A stretch of DNA of 64,000 bases from a bacterium (GTDB lineage: Bacteria > UBA8248), in NCBI GenBank assembly GCA_022828125.1, contig JAJEJD010000018.1:186001-250000 (forward strand), read 5' to 3'. The notes beneath the pieces were generated by a model. That model saw only the letters and a list, made by a program, of their open reading frames with translations. It was not told the origin of the DNA and made no database searches. The position numbers and the translations under genes were made by a program. This document shows, piece by piece, positions 5,011-5,640 of the stretch (its first letter is position 1; each line of letters starts with the position of its first letter).

Positions 5011-5640
5011 TCAGGCTTCCTGATCGGCGAGGGCGCGCTCTAAGGCTTGTTCGAATATGGCCATGGGTTGCGCGCCGGTGATCCTGTATATGCCCGAAAA
5101 ATCGACCGTGGGCGTGGACTGAATACTTGAGTTCACGGCTTCCATGTGATCCGCCAGGACGCGCTTTTCCATATCCGGGTCGGCCATGACCTCGCGCATG
5201 ATCGCGGGCTCCGCTCCCAGCCGCTCGGCGGCGGCCACGAGTACGTCGGCGTCGTCGATGTTCAGGCACTCGACGAGATGCGTTCGCTCCACGGCTTCGA
5301 GATACTCGCCCTCCCGCTCGGGGAGCTGGGCGGCGAAGGCCTTGATGGCGACCGCGCCCGGCGTGGAATGAGGATAAGGAAATTCGCGGCGCGCCATGAG
5401 TTCGGGGTTGATCGCCTCGCCGCCGGGGTGGCTTTTCGCCATCGCCCAGTGGCCCATGATGGCCTCCTTGCGGGCCGGGCGATGGTCCGGCTCGGGCGAG
5501 AGCAGAAAGGCGCGGTATCGGATGGCGAGGCGCCCGCCCGCCTGCTCGCTCAGTGTTCGCAACCGCCCGGTCGCGATGAGACACCAGGCTCAGTGGACGC
5601 AATAGGTATACGTGGCTTCTACGACGGTTCCGTTCGGCAA
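5011..5640 (-). CDS. DsbA/FrnE-like thiol oxidoreductase, probable selenoprotein (in-frame TGA read as Sec)
   Basis: Read through the TGA at 5592-5590, this gives a 209-residue DsbA-family protein of the FrnE/2-hydroxychromene isomerase type, the usual length. The N-terminus reads MPNGTVVEATYTYCVH, then TGA, then AWCLIATGRL. The TGA falls exactly on the first Cys of the family's CPWC-type motif, giving U17-A-W-C20, a redox pair like other Sec-x-x-Cys selenoproteins. TTG at 5640 is chosen because AGGAG lies 6 bases upstream. A SECIS-like hairpin follows the TGA. Without readthrough only residues downstream could be made, lacking the first strand and catalytic motif. It sits between a DUF2064 gene and a TPR lipoprotein in one operon. 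The alternative is a nonsense mutation or base error. Confidence 0.75.
5558..5575 (-). promoter_or_regulatory. Candidate bacterial SECIS hairpin
   Basis: In the mRNA, CGCGACC pairs with GGUUGCG (7 bp including one G-U) around a GGGC loop. The stem begins 15 bases and the loop 22 bases after the UGA at 5592-5590. Known bacterial SECIS elements have a short stem with a small loop whose first positions include G, located roughly 16-37 bases after the UGA, so this fits. It lies inside the coding sequence, as bacterial SECIS must. Confidence 0.65.

Follow-up and report, generated by a model that had tools for sequence, protein, structure and literature searches.

Genes and features at the locus

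Within the window, by which we mean the whole 64,000-nucleotide stretch of DNA that was analysed, the minus strand carries a candidate selenoprotein gene of the DsbA/FrnE family, together with a glycosyltransferase gene upstream and two further genes downstream (Table 1). The N-terminal part of the predicted protein reads MPNGTVVEATYTYCVH-U-AWCLIATGRL, where U (residue 17) corresponds to an in-frame TGA. The initial annotation had placed this TGA at 5592-5590 within TYCVH-U-AWCLIATGRL, an AGGAG six bases ahead of a TTG start at 5640, and a further cysteine, Cys14, three residues ahead of the Sec; all of these are present, the AGGAG at 5651-5647, and the TGA is kept in all eight orthologues that we identified. 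The same annotation had foreseen that automated gene calling would truncate the protein, and mechanical ORF calling does return a 183-aa ORF that begins at TTG 5562.

Table 1. Coordinates of the candidate selenoprotein gene, its functional elements and its neighbours in the window
Feature	Position	Strand	Basis or remark
DsbA/FrnE-family candidate selenoprotein gene	5640-5011	minus	209 aa; Sec = residue 17; TTG start, TGA stop
AGGAG, ribosome-binding-like site	5651-5647	minus	sequence; six bases 5′ of TTG
TTG start codon	5640-5638	minus	non-coding/coding boundary in codon changes falls here
Cys14, three residues before Sec17 (CxxU)	5601-5599	minus	invariant in 8/8 orthologues; Asp in other homologues
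In-frame TGA for putative Sec17, at the head of UAWC	5592-5590	minus	TGA in 8/8 orthologues
Cys20, usual resolving Cys of UxxC	5583-5581	minus	invariant in 8/8 orthologues
SECIS-like hairpin: 8-bp stem 5576-5569 / 5564-5557, loop GGGC 5568-5565	5576-5557	minus	model fit, conservation
Cys125	5268-5266	minus	sole Cys besides Cys14 and Cys20; invariant in 8/8 orthologues
Thr176-Pro177, likely cis-Pro loop of thioredoxin fold	5115-5110	minus	invariant in 8/8 orthologues; aligned to FrnE/SCO1869 Val-Pro
Terminal TGA stop	5013-5011	minus	sequence
TIGR04282 arsenosugar-biosynthesis-type glycosyltransferase, upstream neighbour	6400-5720	minus	174.4 bits, cut-off 134
TPR-repeat lipoprotein-like protein, downstream neighbour	5003-4107	minus	context
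Hydantoinase/dihydroorotase-type amidohydrolase	3892-2090	minus	in G007, immediately 3′ of the orthologue

The TIGR04282 gene lies directly upstream of the focal gene in all seven genomes of the genus. A functional link to arsenosugar synthesis was considered and not adopted, because this neighbour was not found in the stretch from G007, a genome of another genus, which covers only ~1.5 kb of upstream sequence. Not far from the focal gene an OsmC-family protein is encoded at 7739-7263 on the minus strand; it scores 56.6 bits against the NF041052 cut-off of 95, and the match contains no in-frame TGA. Three other OsmC-like genes of the focal genome, which lie above that cut-off, carry a TGA.

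The window was also scanned twice for further conserved in-frame TGAs against the syntenic stretches of two relatives (G003 and G002), both scans being noisy. The first was uninformative because the DNA was too similar, leaving coding and non-coding frames inseparable. In the second, 22 of 999 TGAs passed the filters, all on the minus strand, and we read these as lying antisense to plus-strand genes. With an upstream score of 0.33 the focal gene itself failed the filter, as its start codon lies inside the 20-codon stretch; since the scan missed this gene it is insensitive, and the window may hold a further selenoprotein gene.

Conservation of the in-frame TGA

Our search for orthologues covered 61 genomes, 18 of which make up the phylum set. 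All seven genus genomes have an orthologue, at 87-100% identity, and so does one genome of another genus (G007, 59-60% protein identity), while the remaining ten of the 18 phylum-set genomes gave paralogue-level matches or none. Four of the orthologue contigs are JAJDYR010000022.1, JAPOYD010000029.1, MPNJ01000003.1 and JAPPHK010000092.1; the contig labels are those of Nitrospinota/Nitrospinae MAGs, except for JAJDYR010000022.1, which is labelled 'bacterium'. The source of MPNJ (bin107) is given as the sponge Aplysina aerophoba (PMC5649159).

Each of the eight orthologues contains exactly one internal stop, always TGA, whereas the terminal stop is TGA in three (the focal gene included), TAA in two and TAG in three. 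The initial annotation had asked whether sequence data might show a sense codon at this site; eight separate assemblies all show TGA. Among the seven genus genomes, the ten codons 5′ of the TGA gave 47 synonymous to 6 non-synonymous sequence pairs, as opposed to 18 to 140 for the 14 codons 5′ of the TTG. Judged by these codon changes, the codons directly before the TGA are constrained at the protein level and those 5′ of the TTG are unconstrained. In the orthologue alignment, T10-H16 and A18-C20 are nearly all invariant down to 60% identity. On either side of the TGA, where homology had been noted, the frame is intact and under constraint.

A SECIS-like hairpin downstream of the TGA

The hairpin, UCGCGACC-GGGC-GGUUGCGA, has a stem that begins 13 nt 3′ of the TGA and a TGA-to-loop spacing of 21 nt. 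The 7-bp GGGC-loop stem originally proposed begins at the 15th base past the TGA and is extended to 8 bp by an extra U-A pair. The hairpin is kept in all eight orthologues, the loop being GGUC in G007. All 56 cells of the alignment (7 distinct rows by 8 pairs) are paired, with one-sided changes at two pairs only (G-U to A-U and U-A to U-G); two-sided covariation was not found in these rows.

The bacterial SECIS model published in a 2026 review calls for a loop of 3-9 nt with G in its first two positions, a stem of 4-16 bp, a distance of 16-37 nt from the UGA and a stability of -7.5 kcal/mol or below (PMC13188914). Scored with a simple script of this model, the focal hairpin fits, with a 4-nt loop, 8 bp, 21 nt and -11.8 kcal/mol. 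As a control, 122 of the 1955 TGA trinucleotides on both strands of the window have a model hairpin at or below -7.5 kcal/mol, and 54 of the 1955 have one at or below -10 kcal/mol. None of 200 shuffles was as stable as the hairpin alone (z -2.55), and 5 of 200 were as stable as the 57-nt stretch (z -2.52). The focal hairpin is more than a chance structure. The corresponding 57-nt stretch of G007 showed no extra stability over shuffles (z -0.13), although the apical part of the hairpin has an intact sequence there. At codons +4 to +11, which span the hairpin, synonymous change is low without being exceptional, at rank 34 of 195 codon windows, and a search of Rfam gave no match at the hairpin site.

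Selenocysteine machinery and other candidate selenoproteins of the genome

The initial annotation had pointed to the Sec machinery as a check, and all four components are found above their cut-offs in the focal genome, on a single contig (C30): tRNA-Sec (75.9 bits, cut-off 47) with the anticodon tca (UCA), selA (575.9 bits), selB (384.5 bits) and selD (334.9 bits), the last with an in-frame TGA of its own. Across the 18 phylum-set genomes, tRNA-Sec was found above cut-off in 16 and selA, selB and selD in 14 each, and all 14 selD matches contain one TGA. The misses concern G014 and G015 for tRNA-Sec; G004, G014, G015 and G016 for selA; G004, G013, G014 and G015 for selB; and G004, G010, G011 and G014 for selD. 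Several of them are likely due to genome incompleteness; for G016, G013, G010 and G011, which are rated fairly complete (98%, 91%, 91% and 96%), fragmentation and real absence are both possible explanations. Sec use in sponge symbionts had already been hinted at, since selA and selB are reported to co-occur in most sponge symbiont bins (PMC5649159).

Six families were sampled in the focal genome, and 27 of their 53 matches contain an in-frame TGA: 5 of 6 for PF01323 DsbA, 4 of 7 for OsmC-like (NF041052), 1 of 1 for Rdx/SelW, 7 of 13 for AhpC-TSA, 9 of 20 for CMD/AhpD and 1 of 6 for SelD. The DsbA count includes the focal gene, whose PF01323 match there began past the TGA, and the same 5 of 6 is seen in all seven genus genomes. 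When the 27 TGAs were inspected in context, the matched stretches contained no other type of stop. A model hairpin at or below -7.5 kcal/mol follows 19 of the 27 candidates, compared with 122 of the 1955 control TGAs (Fisher p 6e-17 with the focal TGA in the control set, 6e-16 once it is omitted). The script is not fully sensitive, since 8 of the 27, selD among them, miss the threshold. Conservation in relatives was followed for the DsbA groups and selD. The candidates correspond to loci L037, L050, L071, L101-L103, L105 and L107-L125 of the focal genome (G000). Two of these loci, L111 and L112 (G000:C17:112984-114025), are tandem AhpC-TSA-family genes, each encoding UPYC by way of an in-frame TGA.

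The five DsbA selenoprotein candidates of the genome fall into separate groups in a small FastTree phylogeny, several deep nodes of which are weakly supported, and an origin by one recent expansion was rejected on these grounds. For scale, a 2016 survey called organisms with at least six selenoproteins 'selenoprotein-rich', gave 39 as the largest set known and described such organisms as mostly anaerobes (PMC5029168).

Family assignment and cysteine-containing homologues

The 'DsbA/FrnE-like' label of the initial annotation holds. The focal protein matches PF01323 over residues 15-200 (43.9 bits, cut-off 25.6), as do all eight orthologues, and its best solved relatives by sequence profile are SCO1869 (3gl5, E 3.8e-9) and FrnE (5cnw and 5cp1, E 8.1e-7), 5cnw being the FrnE of Deinococcus radiodurans. 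The profile alignment spans residues 15-207 and sets U-A-W-C opposite C-x-W-C, so that FrnE (PDB 5cnw) and SCO1869 (PDB 3gl5) have Cys where the focal protein has Sec. Thr176-Pro177 is the likely cis-Pro of the family. The expected fold, a thioredoxin fold with an inserted helical domain, is assigned tentatively from these profiles, since AlphaFold2 gave a failed model (mean pLDDT 38) from an input of five sequences, all nearly alike.

According to PMC8945050, FrnE is a DsbA-family thiol oxidoreductase of the cytoplasm, and its C-terminal CX4C aids regeneration. Unlike D. radiodurans FrnE, the focal protein has no CX4C, its only Cys residues being C14, C20 and C125 in addition to Sec17; with regard to the traits of the FrnE subfamily cd03024, namely CP(W/F)C and a frequent C-terminal CX4C, it has UAWC and lacks the CX4C. 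In NCBIfam the only match is below threshold (NF041057, 22 bits against a cut-off of 190). This family, the Rcas_1661 family of thioredoxin-like (seleno)lipoproteins, shows weak C-terminal similarity to the focal protein, which is not a member.

The best matches outside the family come from G228 (109 bits), G053 (105.5) and G097 (92.8), with G235 at 55.7 bits. A motif pattern caught 8 of 15 homologue loci, six with Cys at the Sec column (four CAWC and two CPWC) and two with TGA; the other seven, including that of G097, lie outside the pattern. Cysteine was thus found at the column where the initial annotation had suggested looking for it. In a small FastTree phylogeny the CAWC proteins of G228, G053 and G235 form the sister group of the focal group (support 0.93); they differ from it in having Cys for Sec and Asp for Cys14. 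In two genomes outside the family of the focal genome, L087 (G065) and L032 (G041) are DsbA-family loci with an in-frame TGA before PWC.

Position -3 relative to the Sec is Cys in all eight orthologues, giving an invariant CxxUxxC, and Asp in the eight motif-caught homologues. Three other DsbA groups carry the putative Sec in different surroundings: SDFL-U-PWC (17 members) has Asp at -3, HEYH-U-PWA (3 members) has Glu, and NCYV-U-PYAY, a group of the same lineage present in 12 of 12 genomes examined, has Cys at -3 and Ala in place of the resolving Cys. Taken as a sequence motif, the last of these suggests that a Cys at -3 may be able to partner Sec. The NCYV-U-PYAY loci are L108 (G000:C23:249425-249877) and, in relatives, L126-L136.

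Alternative readings and probable function

Given the Sec machinery, the Cys homologues and the TGA in eight assemblies, the reading as a selenoprotein put forward in the initial annotation is well supported at the sequence level, and the focal gene very probably encodes a cytoplasmic DsbA/FrnE-family selenoenzyme; its location is judged from the lack of an N-terminal extension ahead of the first strand. If the TGA were instead a true stop, a truncated protein without the redox motif would restart downstream, for example at TTG 5562, as the 183-aa ORF and a 192-aa ORF that starts likewise in G007 would allow. The protein-level constraint 5′ of the TGA (47:6) and the near-invariance of T10-H16 and A18-C20 down to 60% identity speak against such a restart, and a neutral stop would hardly be TGA throughout the eight orthologues when the terminal stop varies among them; we regard this reading as very unlikely. 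Reading of UGA as an ordinary amino acid, through a reassigned code or a suppressor tRNA, would match the many genes of the focal genome in which UGA is open in frame. However, TGA also serves as the terminal stop in three of the eight orthologues, including the focal gene, and a sense-recoded TGA could not act as a stop elsewhere; moreover, the in-frame TGAs fall in redox motifs, most with a SECIS-model hairpin (19 of 27 against 122 of 1955 controls), in a genome with the full Sec machinery, which leaves this reading highly improbable.

The genomes are metagenome-assembled and individual ones could contain sequencing or assembly errors, yet such an error, or a pseudogene in decay, is next to negligible as an explanation in view of an identical codon in eight genomes and an intact frame with constraint on either side. 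The ratio of 47:6 against 18:140, the internal TGA in 8 of 8 orthologues and the drifting terminal stop together argue against a plain stop, a pseudogene and a sense-recoded TGA alike.

As a selenoenzyme, the protein would perform thiol/selenol-disulfide exchange through a Sec17-Cys20 pair in the thioredoxin fold; its probable activity is that of a disulfide reductase or isomerase, in line with what has been proposed for FrnE. Cys14 may, speculatively, resolve a Sec-substrate adduct or form a Cys14-Sec17 selenenylsulfide. More tentatively, and with rather less than even confidence, CxxUxxC could mark a dual-partner candidate selenoenzyme, in which Sec17 pairs with either Cys14 or Cys20 as a step from UxxC to CxxU within the DsbA fold, in a previously unreported, sponge-associated and selenoprotein-rich lineage most of whose DsbA-family proteins are Sec-encoded.

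The focal gene adds to an already known type, since the literature on DsbA-like UxxC selenoproteins goes back to 2005: nine sequences were described in the Sargasso Sea set (PMC1088965), the 2008 GOS set comprised DsbA 1-3 with UxxC, UxxC and UxxV (PMC2398784), and the 2026 review lists a DsbA-like form 1 (UxxC) and form 2 (DxxUP) (PMC13188914). Form 1 shares with the focal protein the Pfam family (PF01323), the Sec at the first Cys of CxxC and a SECIS just downstream; the focal protein differs in its extra invariant Cys at -3, and no CxxUxxC motif is listed in the accessible portions of these three papers. Full-text literature searches for 'CxxUxxC', for selenoprotein with Nitrospinota and for selenocysteine with Nitrospinae found no earlier report, most subscription papers lying outside their coverage. 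What stands out here is the unusual CxxUxxC motif and the notable genomic setting, which appears rich in selenoprotein genes.

The focal case adds a well-supported candidate Sec gene, accompanied by orthologues and by a matching sister group with Cys, for which annotation pipelines would give a 183-aa protein without the active site, or no gene at all. Its lineage counts 27 or more candidate selenoprotein genes in the six families sampled, and, with CxxUxxC and CxxU occurring in one fold, simple mutants could test the choice of redox partner by Sec.
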